Of a stretch of DNA of 64,000 nt, positions 20,944-50,653 are shown in pieces. The number at the start of each line of letters is the position of its first letter. The first letter of the stretch is position 1. The position numbers and the translations under genes are program-made. Source of the stretch: Acidithiobacillus sp. AMEEHan (GTDB taxonomy: Bacteria > Pseudomonadota > Gammaproteobacteria > Acidithiobacillales > Acidithiobacillaceae); contig NZ_CP118747.1 of NCBI RefSeq assembly GCF_030996345.1, forward strand, positions 1,920,001 to 1,984,000, written 5' to 3'. Below the pieces are notes generated by a model. It worked only from the letters and a program-made list of their open reading frames with translations, did not search any database and was not told the origin of the DNA.

Positions 20944-20969
20944 GCGGGTGGCCATGATGATGGTTGCCA

Positions 20970-22030
20970 ATGCCCACTGATCTGCCCCGTGTTCTGGATG
21001 CCCTACGTCCCGTGCAGGGACGCGCTCTGCCGGACAGCGGTAGCGCGCAACGAAGTTTTTCGGCGCATACTATGGCCGGTGCCCTGTTGACCGGGCAAAT
21101 CGTTGGTCAATCCGGTGAGCTGAGTCTGGTTCGCATTCGTGGTCAGGATTTTTTGATGCAGCTCCCGCAACGCTGGCCCGCGGAACTACGGGAGCTTTCC
21201 CTGGTGTACCTGGGCGGCCAAGAGGAAGCCAAGTTTCTCTTGCTGCAGTCACAGGGAGCGTCTCTCTCCGCGGCAACCAGTCTATCGCCTCCTCTCAGAA
21301 CGCTGTTCGCGGCGGCGCCGGCATCCGCTCCCGCAACGCTTGCCCTGGTTGGGGTCGATTCCGGCGGTCAAATCCTGGGTTCTTCCCTCGCCACTTCTCT
21401 GCAGAGCGGGGTGGAAAACAGCGGGATGTTTTATGAGAGTCATCTGCAGGCTTGGGCCCAGGGAAATTATCCTTTGCAACGTTTACTCCAGGAGCCGCAG
21501 GGAAAATGGAGCCCGTTGCTCCGTAGCGACGCGGCGAAGGGTGGGGCAGAGGCCGTTTCCTCGCCCAGTTCTGCCCCGTTTCGGTCCGCACAGGCGCAAC
21601 AGGCGCTGGGGTCTACGCGCAAGTAGCGGCCCAGGGTTCTGCTGCCTTTACCGTACCAGCAGCGCTGCATACGGTGTTGCAGCAGCAGGGGCAGGTACTG
21701 ATGCAGCAGCAATTGCTCTGGAATGTGGCGGTGTGGCCAGGGCAAAGCGCTACCTGGACGGTACGCCGTCGCCAGGAGGATGGCCAGGGTGGTGGCAAAG
21801 CGCTTGCCGTGGAAGAGCTGAGCTCTTGGGAGAGCCGGCTGGAAATGGATCTGCCCTTCTTGGGGCATCTCGACGCACGCATATGCCTGCGCGGTGATAC
21901 TCTGAGTTTGCGGATGCAAGCGTCGTTACAGGCCCGGAAGAGTCTACAGGCCAAAATCGAAGAATTGCGCTCGGCGCTGGAGCTGCTGGGATTGCAGGCA
22001 AATATCCGCCTCGAACCGGAAAATGCCTGA
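20970..22030 (+). pseudogene. fliK: Flagellar hook-length control protein FliK, interrupted by a frameshift
   Basis: The first frame (from ATG 20970) stops at 21626; the C-terminal half continues in the -1 frame to 22030. Adding one G to the GGGG run at 21608-21611 joins them into about 353 residues, passing from QQAL through GVYAQVAAQGS. The N-terminal half contains FYESHLQAWAQG and PLQRLLQEPQ, and the C-terminal half has the FliK-C-like LPFLGHLDARICLRGDTL. Unbroken, it would set hook length through FlhB. The frameshift may be a sequencing error (other genes in the window show the same fault), true decay, or slippage. The start is uncertain because no strong ribosome site is seen. Confidence 0.72.
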
Positions 22031-30409: not shown

Positions 30410-31270
30410 ATGTTTCTCATCATTGGTTATGTGATTGCGCTGGGGGCCATTTTTGGCGGATTTATGGCCGAGGGCGGCAAACTTGCAGCGCTCATCCAGC
30501 CGTTTGAGGCGCTGATGATCGTTGGTGGTGCCTTCGGTGCCTTTTTTGCCTCTACTTTCCCCAGAAGTTTCAAGGCGGTTCTCAAGATGTTGCCGATGGC
30601 GCTCAAAGGCAGCAAATATACCCGCGCCGCCTACATGGAATTACTGAGCCTGCTCAACGAAATCTTTGGGCGCATTCGTCAGGGCGGACTGATGTCCATC
30701 GAGGCAGATGTCGATGACCCGCAGAACAGCGAATTGTTCAAGAAATATCCGTCGATTTTGGCAGATCATCATGTTTTGGAATTTCTTACCGACTATCTGC
30801 GGCTGATGGTTGGTGGCACCCTCGGTGCCTTCGAGATGGAAAATCTCATGGACGTGGAAATCGATACGCACCATCGGGAGCTGGAGGTCCCCATCCATGC
30901 CCTGACCCGGGCGGCGGACGGTATGCCGGCCTTCGGCATCGTGGCGGCGGTAATGGGAGTGGTCAATGTCATGAGCTCGGTGGATAAACCCCCCGCGGTA
31001 CTGGGCGAGCTGATTGCCGCTGCATTGGTAGGCACGTTTCTCGGCATCCTGCTGGGCTATGCCGTGGTCTCGCCAATCGCGGCGCGTATGGAAGACCGCG
31101 CGGCAGAAAGCAGCAAAATGCTAGAGACCATCAAGGTCTCATTGCTGGCGACCATGAATGCCTATCCGCCGCAGGTCGCCGTGGAATTTGGGCGCAAAGT
31201 CCTGTATTCCACCGAGCGTCCCAGTTTTCAGGAGCTCGATGCGCATCTGCGCGAGATGAAGAGCAAGTAA
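30410..31270 (+). CDS. motA: Flagellar motor stator protein MotA
   Basis: Proton-channel stator subunit. The 286-residue length and four membrane helices (about 1-20, 30-50, 170-190, 205-225) match the E. coli MotA type. Seen: AEGGKLAALIQPFEALMIVG near the N-terminus, the cytoplasmic loop HHVLEFLTDYLRLMVGGT, and PAFGIVAAVMGVVNVM in helix 3 with the conserved proline. The basal operon order fliL-motA-motB supports the call. GGCGGAAAAAG serves as ribosome site. Confidence 0.94.
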   Translation: MFLIIGYVIALGAIFGGFMAEGGKLAALIQPFEALMIVGGAFGAFFASTFPRSFKAVLKMLPMALKGSKYTRAAYMELLSLLNEIFGRIRQGGLMSIEADVDDPQNSELFKKYPSILADHHVLEFLTDYLRLMVGGTLGAFEMENLMDVEIDTHHRELEVPIHALTRAADGMPAFGIVAAVMGVVNVMSSVDKPPAVLGELIAAALVGTFLGILLGYAVVSPIAARMEDRAAESSKMLETIKVSLLATMNAYPPQVAVEFGRKVLYSTERPSFQELDAHLREMKSK

Positions 31271-31273
31271 GCG

Positions 31274-32209
31274 ATGGCAGAAGGAAAAAAAGACCAGCCG
31301 ATTGTCATCAAGCGCATCAAAAAAAGTGGCGGCAGCCACGGCGGCGCGTGGAAAATTGCCTACGCAGATTTTATCACCGCGCTCATGGCCTTTTTCTTGT
31401 TGATGTGGTTGCTGGGGTCCACCACCAAAGCGACACTACAGGGGATTGCGAACTGGTTCAAAAACCCGGAACGTGTCTCCCTCATGGGTGGACCTGGGAC
31501 TGGTTCGTCCAATTCCATACTGAATGGCGGTGGTAGCAACCTGAACAAAACGGTTGGACAGGTACAGCGGGGACAGGACAAGCAAGTGATACCCAGCCCC
31601 CAGCCGCCAGGGGCCGAGGCACAGGAGATCGACCGGCGGAATCTGGCGCACCTGCAGCAGGAACTGGAGGCTCAGATCCGTGAGAATCCGGCTCTGGCCG
31701 CGTTTCGCAAACAACTGCTGATCAATATCACTCCCGAAGGGCTGCGCATCCAGGTGGTGGATAGCGCCAAGAGACCTATGTTCCCCAATGGCAGTACCGA
31801 CCTGGAACCCTATGCGCGAGCGATTTTTGAGGCCATCGCACCCACTCTCAACACCCTGCCGAATCGGATCAGCATCACGGGGCACACCGATGCCTTGCAG
31901 TATCTCAACGGTGGCAGGGGGTATAGCAATTTTAATCTATCCGCAGGGCGGGCCAACGCAGTACGACAAGTCATGGTGCAGCATGGCTTGGCCGAGGCCA
32001 AAATTCTGCGGGTGATGGGGATGGGATCGGCAGTGCTCTTCGACCGTCAGAATCCCGACTCGCCGCTCAATCGTCGCGTGACCATCGTGGTGTTGAGCAA
32101 CGCGGCGGCCGATCGAATCATCAAAAATCAGCAGGCAGTGATGAATGTGAGTGCGCCTTCCTCGGCGAACGATGCGCTGCACAGTGTCGCCATCACTGGT
32201 TCGTCCTGA
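31274..32209 (+). CDS. motB: Flagellar motor stator protein MotB
   Basis: Anchors the stator to peptidoglycan. The 311-residue protein has one N-terminal membrane helix containing the essential proton-binding aspartate (Asp32 in YADFITALMAFFLLMWLL) and a C-terminal OmpA-like domain (about 170-280) with ISITGHTDALQY and NLSAGRANAVRQVM. The gene starts three bases after motA. The charged N-terminus KKDQPIVIKRIKK is typical of proton-driven MotB. Confidence 0.95.
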   Translation: MAEGKKDQPIVIKRIKKSGGSHGGAWKIAYADFITALMAFFLLMWLLGSTTKATLQGIANWFKNPERVSLMGGPGTGSSNSILNGGGSNLNKTVGQVQRGQDKQVIPSPQPPGAEAQEIDRRNLAHLQQELEAQIRENPALAAFRKQLLINITPEGLRIQVVDSAKRPMFPNGSTDLEPYARAIFEAIAPTLNTLPNRISITGHTDALQYLNGGRGYSNFNLSAGRANAVRQVMVQHGLAEAKILRVMGMGSAVLFDRQNPDSPLNRRVTIVVLSNAAADRIIKNQQAVMNVSAPSSANDALHSVAITGSS

Positions 32210-32308
32210 AACCTCGCGAGACGCCACGGACGCCGACCTGATTTTCCGATTTGCTTTCCTGTGTTACTGTCCCGATAAATCATCGGCAGTGGTCAGGAAG
32301 AAATTCGG

Positions 32309-33048
32309 ATGGCAGAGCCAGCGCAAGGGAGAATATCGATGACAGGTGAGCCTGATTCTCAGGAAGGTGTCCTGGTCGATGATGCAATATTCGAATATCT
32401 GCTGTATTTGCGCGAGAGTGGCGGCGCGATCGCGCTAAGCGACCCGCATCAAGGAACGCACGGGATCGGTCGGGTGCTGCGACTGTCCTCCCGGGGGTAA
32501 CGATTTCCTGCGAAAATTTCTGGGGCGAGCATGCCAGGGTTCTGGTCGCCCACTATGAGCCCCGACGCTCGGTCCATTTTCTTCTGCAGGAGGGCAAGGA
32601 AGAGGAACCGGGCCTGTGGCTCTTCCCCTACCCAAACCGCATTCAGATCCGTCAGGAGCGCAAGAATCTGCGCTATACCGTCAACAGTCCTGTACTCGCG
32701 ACCTGGTACGACCTCCAGGGGAAGGAGCTGGTTTCTGGGGATGTCGTTGACATTGGTCTTGGTGGGTTTCTGGCGAGCATTTATGTATCGAGTGAACAGG
32801 CCTTGGATGCCGGGACTTGTAGAGAAGGCGATCAGGGTCTGATCGTTCTGCGTCGCAGTGATACGCAGGAATGGAAAGGGCAAGCGGCTTTACGGCGGCG
32901 GGTTCCTCTCGATCCTCCCACAGAGGCGAAGCGGGTCGCAGGCGCCGCCGAGTTTGTCTTGCTCGGATTTGCCTTTCAATTTGCCAATTCGCAAGCCATA
33001 AATGAGCTGACGGATTTTTTTCAGGGGATTCTGGGCCCAGTTGCTTGA
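32309..33048 (+). pseudogene. Second YcgR-like PilZ protein, interrupted by a frameshift
   Basis: The first frame (ATG 32309, or ATG 32339) stops at 32500 after RLSSRG; the rest continues in the -1 frame to 33048. One extra G in the G5 run at 32493-32497 restores about 246 residues, the length of YcgR (GVTISCENFWGEHARVLVAH follows). The PilZ RxxxR region is RQERKNLR, but the second motif reads DIGLGG instead of DxSxxG, so c-di-GMP binding may be weakened. It lies directly after fliL-motA-motB, a natural place for a flagellar brake. Sequence error, decay and slippage are all possible. Confidence 0.68.
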
Positions 33049-33069
33049 TGCATCTTCCGTTCGTGGCAA

Positions 33070-33906
33070 TCAGTGCTGCAAATGGGCAACTGCGTGCGTC
33101 TTGGCAACGCGCCGACGTTGGACCTGGCGCTGCTTGGGCAACCCAAAGCTTTCCTTGGCAAAACACCAGCCGAAGAGTCCTACCCAGAGTAGCAGCATGA
33201 CCGATAGAGCAGCGACGAGGGCCGCTGCCGCGGCCTCCTGGAGAATATGGGCGAGATAGCTGATTCCTGCCTGCAGGAGCAGGCTGGCGAGCAGAAATAC
33301 CAGCCAGATACGTACGTTCCGCAACACCGCCAGAAAGCCGGCAAGAAGGGCGAGATAGCCCTGCCGCACCAGCCCCAGCACGACTGCACCCACTGAGAGC
33401 ATCAAAAATACATTGCCAAGTAGGGTTTGCGCATTCCCCAGACTGTTGCTGAGGAGATTTTTCAGCCACAAAGGCAGGTTTGCCCAGCCGCCCGTGTGTA
33501 AGGTTTTCAGCGTGGCCGCCGAGGAAATATGGTCATGTTCCAGAATTCCCCGCAGGTAATGGTGTAGCGACCAGAGTACCAGCAGAATGCTGAAGACCAG
33601 CAACGCCAGGACTATTCCCAGACGGAGCAGCGGCAGCCAGGGCAGATCGCGAAAGGCAAGAAGCAAGTCCTGTATTTGCCAGCCTCCCAATTCTACCGTC
33701 ATGGCAGTGGCAAAGATGAGGGCGGTTTCCAGACCGGCAAAGGGAATGGTCAAGATCAGGGGCTGGTGACTGACGTTGATCAGCATCAGCAAGCCCGAAA
33801 GAAAAATGAAAGCGACCGGCGCCTCCTTCTGCAACGCCCAGGACTCCCGGGTCCAGCGCCGGAACCATCCCGGTGGCACGGAATGCGGCTGCAGGGTCGA
33901 GGCCAA
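33070..33906 (-). CDS. Polytopic membrane protein of unknown function
   Basis: A 278-residue hydrophobic protein with about six membrane helices, for example FIFLSGLLMLINV, LLRLGIVLALLVFSILLVLW, VFLMLSVGAVVLGLV and ALVAALSVMLLLWVGLF, ending in a basic tail with several histidines. I do not recognise the family. The TTG start at 33906 was chosen because it lies one base after the xseA stop and has GGAGG at good spacing; it is probably translationally coupled to xseA. Confidence 0.6.
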   Translation of the reverse strand: MASTLQPHSVPPGWFRRWTRESWALQKEAPVAFIFLSGLLMLINVSHQPLILTIPFAGLETALIFATAMTVELGGWQIQDLLLAFRDLPWLPLLRLGIVLALLVFSILLVLWSLHHYLRGILEHDHISSAATLKTLHTGGWANLPLWLKNLLSNSLGNAQTLLGNVFLMLSVGAVVLGLVRQGYLALLAGFLAVLRNVRIWLVFLLASLLLQAGISYLAHILQEAAAAALVAALSVMLLLWVGLFGWCFAKESFGLPKQRQVQRRRVAKTHAVAHLQH

Positions 33907-45782: not shown

Positions 45783-47018
45783 TTACTGTCTCGATTCCGA
45801 TTCGAGACTTCGCAGGCTTTCCTCCGTTCCCGCCGCAGCGGTAAGGTCGGCGACGTTGTCCTTGGTAAAAAATCCCTGGAAGCCATGAAAGCGCTGCACG
45901 TACTCGATAATGAGCGAGGTATGCGTCGAGGCACGAGAAAAAATCTGCTTCAGTCCCTCCTGCTCGGAGCCAATCACCTGCAGCAGGAATTCCTGCCCGC
46001 ACTCCGCCAGACTGGACACTACATAATCGATGTTGGTTTTGCCCTGCGTGTTGCCATCGCGTACCGCAATGGCAATATGGTGCAAACGCGGGCCAAAATT
46101 GCGAACAAAAGATTCCGTAGGGGAGGGAATTTGCAGTAGATGATTGCAAAAATACGGATGATTGGCCGCCGTGAAAACCTTTGCCGGTGTGTGCAGAACG
46201 TCATCATAGTGCAGGCTTTTGGTGACGTTGGTGGATGAGTTTTGATCGGGGATGTCGTAGGATCCCCAGTAGTAGTAACTGGATAATCCAAGGTACTCGA
46301 GAATGGCAACTTCTCGATTCTGGCTATAGACGCGGGTAGCCAAATGATCGATTGGCAAGAGAAGTTCGCTGATTTTTAGTCGCTCTCGCAGCTCTTGCGC
46401 TTGCTCAAACGCCGCCTGCATTTCTGGGTCGATGCGTGAATTTCCTAGGGCATAGACGCGAATATCGTTATCCGGGCGCTCCCAATACCCGATGATATTG
46501 TGAGTATAGGGTGAGGGCTTTACGATCGCCATGTTTCCCGGGAGCTCCATCTGCCGAATTTGCTCCTGGTTGAAAAAACGGACTTCACGGCTTTTCTGGA
46601 TTTCGACTACCTCGTGCAGATTTTCTACTTGAAAAATCTCTCCCATGTAGCGGGAATTTGGCTTCTTCGCGCCTATCGGATACACCTCGTTCAGGCTGCG
46701 AAAAATGCCGCGCAAATCTGGATTCTTGACCTCCCGTACCAACACATCCGGATAATTCATGTCGATACGCAAGATGTGGGTCAGATGCTGGTCGGTGTCG
46801 AGCGTGACCAGATAGTTGTAGGGAGTCATCAAACAGAGTTCGCGGATGTACGCGGCGGAATGTCCCGGTTCGAGAGTCATCATCAACGCATCGATGCGAC
46901 GGATGTTTTCGGTCAGTCCGAGCCTGTCCCGCTCTTCCAGAAGGCGAGGCAGCCACTCTTCAAAGAAGGGGGAGTTGGCTTTATCGCCCTGGCGAGGATG
47001 CGCGGTATAACTGTTCAC
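45783..47018 (-). CDS. VOC-family protein related to 4-hydroxyphenylpyruvate dioxygenase
   Basis: A 411-residue protein. Its C-terminal half has the pattern of HPPD-type dioxygenases: IDHLATRV (first His), LHHIAIAVRDGN (second His), and IIEYVQRFHGFQGFFTKDN (Glu ligand then F and N), so the Fe(II) triad appears complete. The N-terminal half is divergent. The real substrate is unknown; tyrosine breakdown is unexpected in a presumed autotroph. The GTG start at 47018 was preferred because AAGGAG (47030-47025) lies six bases upstream; an ATG at 47051 would add 11 residues without a ribosome site. Confidence 0.72.
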   Translation of the reverse strand: MNSYTAHPRQGDKANSPFFEEWLPRLLEERDRLGLTENIRRIDALMMTLEPGHSAAYIRELCLMTPYNYLVTLDTDQHLTHILRIDMNYPDVLVREVKNPDLRGIFRSLNEVYPIGAKKPNSRYMGEIFQVENLHEVVEIQKSREVRFFNQEQIRQMELPGNMAIVKPSPYTHNIIGYWERPDNDIRVYALGNSRIDPEMQAAFEQAQELRERLKISELLLPIDHLATRVYSQNREVAILEYLGLSSYYYWGSYDIPDQNSSTNVTKSLHYDDVLHTPAKVFTAANHPYFCNHLLQIPSPTESFVRNFGPRLHHIAIAVRDGNTQGKTNIDYVVSSLAECGQEFLLQVIGSEQEGLKQIFSRASTHTSLIIEYVQRFHGFQGFFTKDNVADLTAAAGTEESLRSLESESRQ

Positions 47019-47089
47019 GATTCGCTCCTTGGATTGGCTCCGCTTCACCATCCTGCGTGCCGCGAGGGTGGGTGTCCGGCAAAAAGATT

Positions 47090-47166
47090 TGGCGCGCCCA
47101 GAGGGAATCGAACCCCCAACCTACGGCTTAGAAGGCCGTTGCTCTATCCGATTGAGCTATGAGCGC
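47090..47166 (-). tRNA. tRNA-Arg (anticodon TCT)
   Basis: Minus-strand cloverleaf of 77 bases with encoded CCA. Acceptor GCGCTCA/TGGGCGC with two wobble-type pairs, anticodon arm ACGGC-CTTCTAA-GCCGT (anticodon TCT, codon AGA), T-arm with GGTTCGATTCC. Confidence 0.93.
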
Positions 47167-47450: not shown

Positions 47451-48206
47451 ATGAAGCCGTATCGCTGGGCACGCCTGCTAGCCGGTGCCGCAATTCTTTC
47501 GCTGAGCTCCTGTGCGCAATCTCTTCCCCAGACCGCCGCGCCACAGCCCGTGCTACCGACGACCGTCAGGACTCTGGCGCCCAAAAGCACGGCTGCCCCC
47601 GGCGACCGTTATCTGGATCGCATGGCAATCATCGATGCGCGCAAGGATTTCCAGCAGAGCCCCGATCCTGGCTACGTGCTCGACGCCCACTCAGTCATCC
47701 GCTTTCCCAGCTTGGGTCCCACTGGTGTGATCATCATTGGTGATAGCATCCTGACGGGTTGGTCTGGCTATTTTGCCCATGTCTTTCCCAATGCTTTCCT
47801 CGATGGCCGGGTCGGGCGACAGTTTTCTGCCATTATCCCCATCTGGCGAACCCTGCAGGAAGCGGGGATGACCCATAAAGTCGGGTATGTGGTAGTGGAG
47901 TTGGGGACCAACGGTGAGGTTTCGCCCCAGGATCTGCAAACCTTTCTACGCCTGGTCGGCGATCGTCAGGTGCTGCTGGTGATGCCGGAAATGCCGAGAT
48001 CCTGGGAGCACGAGGTGCAAGATCTCTATCTTCAGGCCGCCGCTACCCATCCCAACGTCCATCTGGTGCGCTGGGACTTGCTGAGTCGAAACCATCCCAG
48101 TTATTTCTGGACCGATCGGGTGCACCCGACCTGGATGGGAATCCAGGTCATGGTGCATGCCATTGCCCGTGATCTGGAAAAAGTGATTGCCAACAAGAAC
48201 AACTAA
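47451..48206 (+). CDS. SGNH-hydrolase-like lipoprotein
   Basis: A 251-residue protein with a lipoprotein signal (lipobox LSLSSC, Cys at about 21) and an SGNH/GDSL-type domain from about residue 90. The blocks are IIIGDSILTGW (GDS near residue 97), VVELGTNGEV (block III) and DRVHPTWMG (DxxH). The run VFPNAFLDGRVGRQF recalls the SGNH domain of peptidoglycan O-acetyltransferase OatA. It is a paralogue of the C-terminal domain of the next protein, 23 bases downstream. A likely role is acyl transfer or removal on cell-wall sugars in the periplasm (inferred). ATG 47451 was chosen for its signal peptide, although no ribosome site is evident. Confidence 0.75.
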   Translation: MKPYRWARLLAGAAILSLSSCAQSLPQTAAPQPVLPTTVRTLAPKSTAAPGDRYLDRMAIIDARKDFQQSPDPGYVLDAHSVIRFPSLGPTGVIIIGDSILTGWSGYFAHVFPNAFLDGRVGRQFSAIIPIWRTLQEAGMTHKVGYVVVELGTNGEVSPQDLQTFLRLVGDRQVLLVMPEMPRSWEHEVQDLYLQAAATHPNVHLVRWDLLSRNHPSYFWTDRVHPTWMGIQVMVHAIARDLEKVIANKNN

Positions 48207-48229
48207 TCTTTTCTTTCCGGTAAAAAATC

Positions 48230-50452
48230 GTGCTGCCATATATTGATTATTTGAAGTTCTTGGCTATTTTTGCGGTCATCGCGTTCCATATTCATGACAC
48301 CATCAGTTTTGCCTACCCTTGGTTTTCCGGTGGCTATCTGGGAGTCGATATTTTTCTCCTGTTATCGGGATTTCTGATCGAAAAATCGCTGGAGCGCGGG
48401 CGCCAGAGTACATTGGCGCAGCGTAGCAAGGATTTTTTTGCTCGACGATTTTCTCGTATTCTCGTTCCCATGCTGGCGGTTACCGCGATCCTCGCGATAC
48501 TCCTTTGGTCGACCGACCTACTCACGGGATGGGCACCCGTGTGGTACTCGGCGATCCTGGGCTACAATTTTTATCTGGTCCTCCATCACATCCCCTATTT
48601 CCAGGTATACAGTTACCCGCATCCGTTTTTGGGGATGTGGTTCATTTCCCTTTTGGGTCAGTTATATCTGCTGCACTTCTTACTGCGCACTTCGTTGCCT
48701 AGAAAGTGGCTGTACCGGACGGTGCTGCCGGTGCTCTTTTGCGTAAGTTTGGGGTCTGCCTGGTGGCTGATGCGCCAGGGTAATTTGAATGCCGCCTATG
48801 TGCTTCCCAGCCATGCTTTTCCCTATCTTGCCGGCGCATTACTGACCGAACTGGGCTGGGCCCGGCCTCGGGAGGTAGGACGGAGTAGCTTCGACGGCCT
48901 GGGTATCCTTGCCCTTCTGCTGCTGCTGGCACTTTTTATTTGGGCACCCTACGAGAATTTTGTGTATTTCTCCCTTGCTGCCACCGCCCTTGGCTTGGTC
49001 TTTCTGCTTGCTGCCGCGCGTGCGGCCTGGTTGCCGCGCCTGCGACTGCTGGTTTTGGGTAAGCTAGGGGAGATGTCCTATTCCCTGTATCTCTTGAATG
49101 TTCCGGTCGTTGCCCTGGTTCACTATTACTTCCCACAGACTTCCATTGCCAGCCAGGTGTTGTTTTCGCTCTCTTTACTGCTGTTGTTGTCGGTGCTGAC
49201 CTACCTGCTGCTGGAGCTGCCATTGCAGGCAGCCTTTCAAAAACAGGCGCGACATGGGGTAGGCAGGGGGGCATTCGTGTTGGTGCTGGTCTTGCTGGCG
49301 CTGGCGAGCGGGGGCTGGTGGCAGGCCAATCGCCTGGGACAGGAAGCAGTGCGTCAGCAAGCGCAGGCGCAGCATGATGCGCTCTATCGGCAATATCTGG
49401 AGAAACGGGTGGCCAGCATGGGACGGGATCTGCAAGCACTAACGGGCGCTAAGACCCTTTCAGCTGCCGAGGCAGAGGCACACGCGGATTCCCGGGCCAA
49501 CAAGGCCCTGGAAAGTAATGCCGATCTGATGCAGTGGCAGCCTCATCCCGGTCTGGGCTTTTTGTATAACGGGCAAGAGCTACGCAGTAATCCAGCCTAT
49601 CCTGAAAAACAGGTATTGTTCATTACTGACTCTATTCTGCTGGGTTGGTCGGGGTACGTAATCCACATGATTCCGAATGGGATTCTGGATGGTCAGGTGG
49701 GCCGCTCGTTTTTCCGGGCGCAGGCGGTTCTGCAGAAAATGTTTCAGGATCCGGCCTATGCCAAGGTTGCCTATGTCGTGGTCGAGTTAGGCAGCAATGG
49801 CTATGTTCAGTGGCCTGATCTAGAGAGTTTTGTGCAGGCAGTGGGGGATCGAAAGATACTGTTGATCGTTCCGTCCGTACCGCGCCCGTGGGAAAATGAA
49901 GTGCGCAGTATGTATGATCGTGCGGCAGCCAAGTATCCCAATATCACCTTGCTACACTGGAACCGCATTAGTGACGGTCACCCGAGCTATTTTGTGGCGG
50001 ATCAGGTCCATCTCAATTGGGATGGTGCGCAGGCGCTGATGCAGGCAGTGCTCCGGACCTTGTACCAGATGGGCTATCGGAATCCGCTACCGGTCAAAGC
50101 GGTCTCTGTCAACGCTGCGCCTGCTACCCAGCCATTGCGTAGCGCGAAACCGTCTGCTGCGACCCAGTCCGCTCCGGTTTCCGCTACTGCCAGTTCGGCT
50201 GTGGTAAGAGACAGCTCTGCCAAGGCCCGGTCGGGTGTTGGTGGATTTTCCACGATGATTCCAATCGCCCCGGCCCTACAACAACAACGCACCGGTCAGA
50301 TCAGCAGCCCTGCTGGCGAAACCACAAGCGAGCCAGACGATCTCGAAGAGAGTCAGGCGAGAGAGGGTAACCGAGAGGACGCTGGGACCCTGCAGAGTCC
50401 CAGCGAGACACGAAGTGGTGCTCCTACGCAGCAGCAAAACATGGCTGAGTGA
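48230..50452 (+). CDS. OatA-like acyltransferase: acyltransferase-3 membrane domain plus SGNH domain
   Basis: A 740-residue protein. Residues about 1-370 form the acyltransferase-3 membrane domain with about ten helices, starting PYIDYLKFLAIFAVIAFHIH and with GVDIFLLLSGFLIEKS. Residues about 460-615 form an SGNH domain (LFITDSILLGW, VVELGSNGYV, ADQVHLNWDG). Note TDS where the upstream paralogue has GDS. The last 120 residues are Ala/Ser/Gln-rich and probably disordered. The architecture matches OatA-type peptidoglycan O-acetyltransferases, but the acceptor could be another glycan. The GTG start at 48230 has only a weak ribosome site. Confidence 0.82.
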   Translation: MLPYIDYLKFLAIFAVIAFHIHDTISFAYPWFSGGYLGVDIFLLLSGFLIEKSLERGRQSTLAQRSKDFFARRFSRILVPMLAVTAILAILLWSTDLLTGWAPVWYSAILGYNFYLVLHHIPYFQVYSYPHPFLGMWFISLLGQLYLLHFLLRTSLPRKWLYRTVLPVLFCVSLGSAWWLMRQGNLNAAYVLPSHAFPYLAGALLTELGWARPREVGRSSFDGLGILALLLLLALFIWAPYENFVYFSLAATALGLVFLLAAARAAWLPRLRLLVLGKLGEMSYSLYLLNVPVVALVHYYFPQTSIASQVLFSLSLLLLLSVLTYLLLELPLQAAFQKQARHGVGRGAFVLVLVLLALASGGWWQANRLGQEAVRQQAQAQHDALYRQYLEKRVASMGRDLQALTGAKTLSAAEAEAHADSRANKALESNADLMQWQPHPGLGFLYNGQELRSNPAYPEKQVLFITDSILLGWSGYVIHMIPNGILDGQVGRSFFRAQAVLQKMFQDPAYAKVAYVVVELGSNGYVQWPDLESFVQAVGDRKILLIVPSVPRPWENEVRSMYDRAAAKYPNITLLHWNRISDGHPSYFVADQVHLNWDGAQALMQAVLRTLYQMGYRNPLPVKAVSVNAAPATQPLRSAKPSAATQSAPVSATASSAVVRDSSAKARSGVGGFSTMIPIAPALQQQRTGQISSPAGETTSEPDDLEESQAREGNREDAGTLQSPSETRSGAPTQQQNMAE

Positions 50453-50560: not shown

Positions 50561-50653
50561 GGAGAGATGGCCGAGAGGCTGAAGGCGCTCCCCTGCTAAG
50601 GGAGTATGGGGCTAAACACTCCATCGAGGGTTCGAATCCCTCTCTCTCCGCCA
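50561..50653 (+). tRNA. tRNA-Ser (anticodon GCT)
   Basis: Class II tRNA of 93 bases with encoded CCA. Acceptor GGAGAGA/TCTCTCC, anticodon arm CTCCC-CTGCTAA-GGGAG (anticodon GCT), long variable arm, T-arm GAGGGTTCGAATCCCTC. The 199 bases after it hold no gene that I can see, before the terminator of the RND operon. Confidence 0.95.

Follow-up and report, generated by a model that had tools for sequence, protein, structure and literature searches.

Two adjacent genes in Acidithiobacillus sp. AMEEHan encode an SGNH-domain lipoprotein (LIP) and a fusion of an AT3 acyltransferase domain to a second SGNH domain (FUS). They lie within a 64,000-nucleotide stretch (contig NZ_CP118747.1, positions 1,920,001 to 1,984,000), referred to here as the window. 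The two SGNH domains are homologous, both are closest in sequence and predicted fold to the peptidoglycan O-acetyltransferase OatA, and they are separated by a clade-wide substitution near the catalytic serine, with Gly-Asp-Ser (GDS) in LIP and Thr-Asp-Ser (TDS) or Ser-Asp-Ser (SDS) in FUS. We propose, with a probability of about 0.5, that the pair is a Gram-negative variant of the OatA system in which the SGNH domain has been doubled, with LIP slightly more likely to remove acetyl groups than to add them.

Two homologous SGNH domains in an obligate gene pair

Both reading frames are open and run head to tail with 23 bp between them (Table 1). Their SGNH domains share 40% identity over 204 residues (E 2.5e-48), far beyond chance, and the common motifs listed in the original prediction are present as described: GDS-ILTGWSGY, FPN, DGRVGR, VVELGTNG and DRVHPTW in LIP; TDS-ILLGWSGY, IPN, DGQVGR, VVELGSNG and DQVHLNW in FUS. 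Neither domain is named by Pfam, with matches to PF13472, the GDSL esterase family in which Ape1-like enzymes would be looked for, below cut-off for both (LIP, E 0.009 and 16.9 bits against a cut-off of 32.9; FUS, E 0.02), and an NCBIfam search of the two domains returned nothing useful. A sequence search against solved structures identified the C-terminal domain of Staphylococcus aureus OatA (SaOatA) as the match of both FUS residues 463-611 (5e-23) and LIP residues 93-244 (1e-24). Structure prediction agrees with this OatA likeness, which the original prediction had suggested for FUS. The AlphaFold model of LIP (mean confidence, pLDDT, 81) superimposes on the OatA structure 6VJP with a Z-score of 23.6 and a root-mean-square deviation of 1.7 over 154 residues, whereas the best non-OatA structure reaches a Z-score of 17.2 and PatB structures rank lower. 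The SGNH domain of the FUS model (pLDDT 74) matches 6VJP with a target template-modelling score of 0.91; among the Foldseek matches listed for the complete model, none to the AT3 part was strong.

LIP starts at an ATG within a longer open frame, and its relatives start at the same place or a few codons earlier. Pattern matching places a lipobox-type cysteine in all 12 paired LIP proteins whose N-terminus is present. The +2 rule of the E. coli Lol system is a guide to the sorting of lipoproteins between the two membranes, and by this rule the alanine that follows the lipobox cysteine presumably directs LIP to the outer membrane. FUS starts at a GTG and has the architecture of OatA: an AT3 domain (PF01757, E 2.5e-25; 89.7 bits against a cut-off of 31), an extra membrane helix and a C-terminal SGNH domain. 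The model shows the AT3 bundle and the further membrane helix followed by a stalk, the SGNH domain and a tail. The stalk is predicted as one helix over residues 346-404 and another over 410-429, in a part of the model where confidence is low to middling (46-79, averaged per ten-residue block). The C-terminal tail has no counterpart in the OatA-like proteins aligned below. Within the AT3 domain, FUS keeps Asp6/Lys9-x10-His20, Arg73-x-x-Arg76, Ser283-Tyr287 (SxxxY; Ser in 10/12 rows) and Glu329, residues of motifs whose roles are described in PMC9833829 and PMC12423673.

The neighbourhood survey proposed with the original prediction revealed an obligate pairing. We examined 31 genomes of the order Acidithiobacillales, 12 of which contain an SGNH match. 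In all 11 that bear FUS (the window genome G000, and G001, G009, G010, G011, G016, G017, G018, G023, G026 and G028), as well as in two of two contigs from metagenome-assembled genomes (MAGs), LIP lies directly upstream, and, contrary to what would have refuted the original prediction, FUS without LIP was never found among them. The G009 pair is split over two contig ends, the first carrying LIP with the AT3 part and the second the SGNH part, and in G016 LIP is cut by the contig start. The twelfth genome, G022, has only a related unfused SGNH gene.

A wider scan of genome contigs, for which the best 80 of 210 confirmed matches (78 distinct loci) were considered, returned the same lineage, the two MAG contigs with the full pair and 64 loci of other organisms (L062-L125). 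The titles of these 64 read as Bacillota (Paenibacillus, Bacillus, Staphylococcus and kin) and the match lies in an OatA-like protein; none contains an unfused SGNH protein of the LIP/FUS family within its bounds, which for some are contig ends, and one (L124) has two full-length OatA-like genes. OatA-type SGNH domains are rare in sampled Pseudomonadota outside this family, with matches in 2 of 369 genomes of a class sample (own genome included) and 1 of 398 in a phylum sample (own genome only).

A fixed active-site difference and its origin

The active sites were compared in a single alignment of 98 rows: 13 FUS, 17 LIP, two further unfused copies (SOL) and 66 OatA-like comparison rows, of which 65 come from loci L062-L125 and one from a gammaproteobacterium (L127). 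Block I reads TDS in 12 of the 13 FUS rows and SDS in the other; it reads GDS in all 16 LIP rows that contain the stretch (the 17th is truncated before it), in both SOL rows and in 66/66 comparison rows. The OatA-type GDS is therefore found in LIP and not in FUS, and the contrast between the two proteins first noticed in the window extends to a conserved split. A second difference lies in block III, which is GTN in 17/17 LIP rows and GSN in 12/13 FUS rows. The catalytic triad and both oxyanion residues (Gly, Asn) are intact throughout LIP and FUS, as is the block II Val-Gly-Arg, in agreement with the earlier observation that the serine and the DxxH are kept in both.

As the varied glycine, two residues before the catalytic serine, is neither a triad nor an oxyanion residue, TDS does not mean a dead enzyme. 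An inactive TDS domain was considered and is ruled out by the retained triad and oxyanion residues and by a ratio of non-synonymous to synonymous substitution rates (dN/dS) of about 0.04-0.06. Across four genome pairs, dN/dS of the SGNH domain was 0.038-0.059 for LIP and 0.035-0.064 for FUS; both domains are under purifying selection.

Two other columns separate these proteins from their relatives or from each other. Four residues after the catalytic serine, LIP (16/16) and FUS (13/13) have Gly, and the comparison rows have Asp (53), Gly (9) or Asn (4); we take this column to be that of the water-holding Asp of SaOatA. The mechanism is described in PMC9487903. The triad His is followed by Pro in LIP (17/17) and SOL (2/2), and by Leu in FUS (13/13) and in 63/66 comparison rows; one GDSL-fold chain also shows HPN.

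In a maximum-likelihood tree, rooted at the midpoint, FUS forms one clade of 13 rows (support 99/94), LIP and SOL together form its sister clade of 19 rows (98/90), and a long branch (1.32; 100/99) sets the 66 comparison rows apart; the bootstrap was not yet fully stable, and long-branch warnings were given. This topology bears out the suggested SGNH duplication and, with FUS and LIP plus SOL as sister clades, places a single old duplication before the pair spread within the family. The change from Gly to Thr or Ser falls on the FUS stem. A recent duplication in this strain is ruled out by the same tree. The fusion may have a separate history. The best BLAST scores of the FUS AT3 domain are similar, at 98 bits to gammaproteobacterial AT3-SGNH proteins and 85 bits to OatA-like proteins. 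We set aside transfer of a whole OatA from Bacillota, as only the SGNH domain points there and the AT3 similarity is equivocal.

Proposed division of labour and its alternatives

AT3 domains carry acetyl from acetyl-CoA over the membrane, and fused SGNH domains complete the transfer (PMC9558356). In our favoured reading, FUS would sit in the inner membrane. Its AT3 domain would move acetyl from acetyl-CoA to the periplasmic side, and the SGNH domain, raised on the stalk, would place it on peptidoglycan, probably at C6 of N-acetylmuramic acid (MurNAc). LIP would be a copy of this SGNH domain that became lipid-anchored, probably at the outer membrane, and that acts on the same O-acetyl ester from the opposite face of the wall. 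Gram-negatives with PatA/PatB are reported also to carry Ape1, which is needed because lytic transglycosylases require a free C6 hydroxyl (PMC6174289, PMC7083599), and LIP may do Ape1's job here. Close to flagellar stators, such acetylation could set both the grip of MotB on the wall and the sites at which lytic transglycosylases cut. The joint function put forward in the original prediction is supported, and the division of labour is a proposal; the outer-membrane glycan or lipopolysaccharide (LPS) that it offered as a target has no support, both SGNH domains being nearest to a peptidoglycan enzyme.

Published descriptions present peptidoglycan O-acetylation as two machineries, OatA in Gram-positives and PatA/PatB/Ape1 in Gram-negatives (PMC12148441, PMC6174289). 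The OatA of Bacillota (S. aureus type; 6VJP, 6WN9) resembles FUS in AT3-SGNH architecture and is nearest to both SGNH domains, with a common triad, oxyanion residues and (V/I)GR. It differs from FUS in blocks I and III, in the AT3 residues discussed below and in its Gram-positive host. FUS, unlike OatA, has Gly where we take OatA to have Asp, a predicted helical stalk, a long tail and an obligate unfused SGNH lipoprotein as partner. PatA/PatB/Ape1 of Neisseria and Campylobacter is alike in function, with a membrane importer, a separate SGNH protein and a need for removal. PatA, however, is an MBOAT protein (PF03062), a class with no member in the 31 genomes, so that no PatA-type importer is seen; the FUS importer carries its own SGNH domain, and LIP is nearer to OatA than to PatB. 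The O-antigen acetyltransferases OafA and OafB are likewise Gram-negative AT3-SGNH fusions with K/R-x10-H and RxxR, but the SGNH domain of FUS is of OatA type and its linker is modelled as a long helix. In L. plantarum, OatA and OatB are also two related SGNH enzymes on one polymer (PMC9558356), although both are full AT3-SGNH fusions, whereas the partner here is an unfused lipoprotein.

For LIP, we place an esterase only slightly ahead of a transferase, and do so from context. The pair genomes contain no protein of PF13472 or PF00657 above threshold (0/11; five of the 31 genomes have one, all without the pair), and hence no further Ape candidate from these two families. In G022, a LIP-clade gene persists although neither AT3 nor MBOAT was found in that genome; the absence of a visible importer favours an esterase there, as does the change to Pro after the triad His. 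Retention of the block II Val and of GTN favours a transferase. The (V/I)GR of block II is described as an OatA-type motif whose Val/Ile favours transfer, its replacement in SpOatA lowering transferase activity five- to tenfold (PMC5697884).

The same observations bear on a tentative alternative with real weight, in which LIP is a second, PatB-like O-acetyltransferase, receiving acetyl from FUS directly or via its SGNH domain and modifying peptidoglycan near the outer membrane or another position or glycan. LIP keeps every OatA transferase hallmark that was tested (GDS, VGR, GTN) and is the copy with the unchanged GDS, FUS being the one altered near the serine and in block III; the predicted stalk could, moreover, raise the FUS domain into the periplasm. 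Such a LIP would nonetheless be lipid-anchored, probably at the outer membrane, far from its donor; the FUS domain, with its full triad and strong selection, is in no obvious need of a substitute; and the G022 gene persists where no importer of either class was found. We consider it unlikely that the pair acts on a flagellar or surface glycan (flagellin, LPS or exopolysaccharide) instead of peptidoglycan. In its favour, LIP directly follows flagellar or PilZ genes in 7 of the 10 pair genomes whose left flank is available, other Gram-negatives are reported to modify O-antigen with AT3-SGNH proteins (PMC9487903), and the AT3 domain is about equally near to such gammaproteobacterial proteins and to OatA. 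Both SGNH domains are nevertheless of OatA type, and the genes around the pair encode stator, hook-length, export and PilZ proteins, with no glycosyltransferase among the 30 neighbour proteins scanned. Slightly less likely still are redundant copies held together by operon structure, with TDS and GDS the product of neutral drift. The changed residue is non-catalytic, and Thr and Ser are small substitutions; against drift stand the clade-wide split, the low dN/dS of both copies and the occurrence of the pair in several genomic settings, with LIP directly upstream of FUS in each.

Several points weigh against the doubled-OatA reading itself. The two conserved Glu of the OatA motif EEQFY are absent from FUS. 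At the position of OatA Tyr206, all 12 FUS rows examined have Ala or Ser, and an invariant Tyr190 stands in the adjacent column. Tyr206 is the proposed acetyl carrier of SaOatA, and no clear relay residue for acetyl emerges in FUS from the alignment. The AT3 similarity gives OatA no advantage over the gammaproteobacterial AT3-SGNH proteins. The LIP active site still looks transferase-like in its block II Val and GTN, and LIP is without the carbohydrate-binding module appended to Ape1 (PMC12148441). As to the flagellar link, 14 of the 26 genomes of the order that are flagellated (as judged by PF00669) have no LIP, FUS or related SGNH match, and chance could explain why the pair is confined to genomes with flagella (hypergeometric 0.09). 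Our literature search found no biochemical data on the pair, and nothing linking Acidithiobacillus to SGNH acyltransferases or peptidoglycan O-acetylation; it largely excluded subscription papers, and this is weak evidence of absence.

If the doubled-OatA reading is correct, it places an OatA-type enzyme in a Gram-negative lineage, and acetyl removal may have been solved there by doubling an SGNH domain and not by borrowing Ape1. LIP and FUS would also provide two naturally occurring sister SGNH domains whose active sites differ in a fixed way, a good test of what makes such a fold a transferase or an esterase, and the pair might allow the influence of wall acetylation on flagellar motors to be studied genetically. 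Loss of Ape1 in Campylobacter jejuni is reported to raise O-acetylation from 12.5 to 35.6% and to reduce the swarm halo to 70%, and its authors discuss MotB binding to MurNAc (PMC5077204). By analogy, this effect fits a link between the pair and nearby stator genes, short of proof. An improbable, stronger version would have a two-enzyme acetyl system spanning the periplasm and devoted to the flagellar motor, in which FUS, retuned by the Gly-to-Thr change, acetylates and LIP clears or relays locally, setting both stator anchoring and the opening of the wall for the rod.

Genome context and related loci

The flagellar or PilZ genes that precede LIP in seven genomes fall into two kinds. A FliK-like gene with a gene resembling the C-terminus of FlhB precedes it in G001, G009, G010, G011 and G017. 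In G028 and G018 LIP is preceded by a gene behind motA-motB, which we presume to be PilZ-like on the basis of its motif, Pfam having given no match; in G018 a transposase gene separates motAB from it. In some relatives the pair is joined to the motAB cluster, and in the eight genomes that have the pair and motB on a single contig the distance between them is 2 to 46 kb (7/8 within 18 kb). In G023 and G026 the pair is elsewhere, as it is in the window genome, where it sits between two tRNA genes (Table 1). None of G000, G022, G023 and G026 has the pair at the site that it occupies in G028, from the PilZ-like gene to a convergent gene. The pair has moved or been inserted as a unit, LIP and FUS changing place together. 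All 11 pair genomes are flagellated, as are 15 genomes without the pair; in view of these 15 and of the hypergeometric value, we set aside the idea that the pair strictly marks flagellated genomes.

Table 1. Coordinates in the window of LIP, FUS, their domains and motifs, and flanking features
Feature	Position	Strand	Basis
motA (30410-31270) and motB (31274-32209)	30410-32209	+	tblastn; Pfam of relatives' genes
tRNA-Arg flanking the pair	47090-47166	-	
LIP, SGNH-domain lipoprotein, 251 aa	47451-48206	+	
LIP lipobox L-S-S-C, residues 18-21 (Cys21, then Ala)	47502-47513	+	by pattern
LIP block I GDS, nucleophile Ser99	47739-47747	+	
LIP block III ELGTN, oxyanion Asn154	47898-47912	+	
LIP block V D-R-V-H, Asp222 and His225, then Pro	48114-48125	+	
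FUS, AT3-SGNH fusion protein, 740 aa	48230-50452	+	
FUS AT3 acyltransferase domain, K-x10-H (K9, H20) and RxxR (R73, R76)	48236-49234	+	Pfam PF01757
Last membrane helix of FUS with the long stalk predicted as helical, residues 346-430	49265-49519	+	model
FUS SGNH domain	49580-50068	+	
FUS block I TDS, nucleophile Ser468	49625-49633	+	
FUS block V D-Q-V-H, Asp591 and His594	50000-50011	+	
FUS C-terminal low-confidence tail, residues 625-740, probably disordered	50102-50449	+	model
tRNA-Ser flanking the pair	50561-50653	+	

Ten of the 11 pair genomes, the window genome among them, have no AT3 match other than FUS; G018 has one weak extra.

In the window, the pair-free site corresponds to positions 33045-33109 (compared with L033, L129, L130 and L131). 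The PilZ-like gene after motB (32210-33048) has a broken frame, for which a sequencing error is possible; its homologues in G022, G023 and G026 align without a break. The FliK-like gene (20964-22030) is spread over two open reading frames (ORFs; 20964-21626 and 21674-22030) and is possibly broken. A 422-aa ORF without a Pfam match (45783-47051) is adjacent to the pair in G000 and G026 and lies nearby in G023.

The same GDS plus TDS pair occurs on contigs labelled as an Acidiphilium MAG (L056, beside Nramp, Obg-type GTPase and PUA-domain amino-acid-kinase genes) and a Proteobacteria MAG (L057), either by horizontal spread or by mis-binning. The other gammaproteobacterium, G357, encodes an OatA-like AT3-SGNH protein of GDS type at L127, with no second SGNH gene of the LIP/FUS family within this short locus. 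Four genomes that have the pair also contain an extra, unpaired LIP copy (L036, L040, L043 and L034); three of these resemble soluble periplasmic forms and one is truncated, and in two of the four genomes a phospholipase-D-like gene lies near the copy. A distinct clade of unfused SGNH genes, which includes that of G022, is represented at L046 (6245-7324) and L047 (6817-7722). This clade is probably mobile: relaxase-like (MobL/DUF3363) and transposase genes lie close by at L046, and a homologue of the relaxase-like gene is present at L047.

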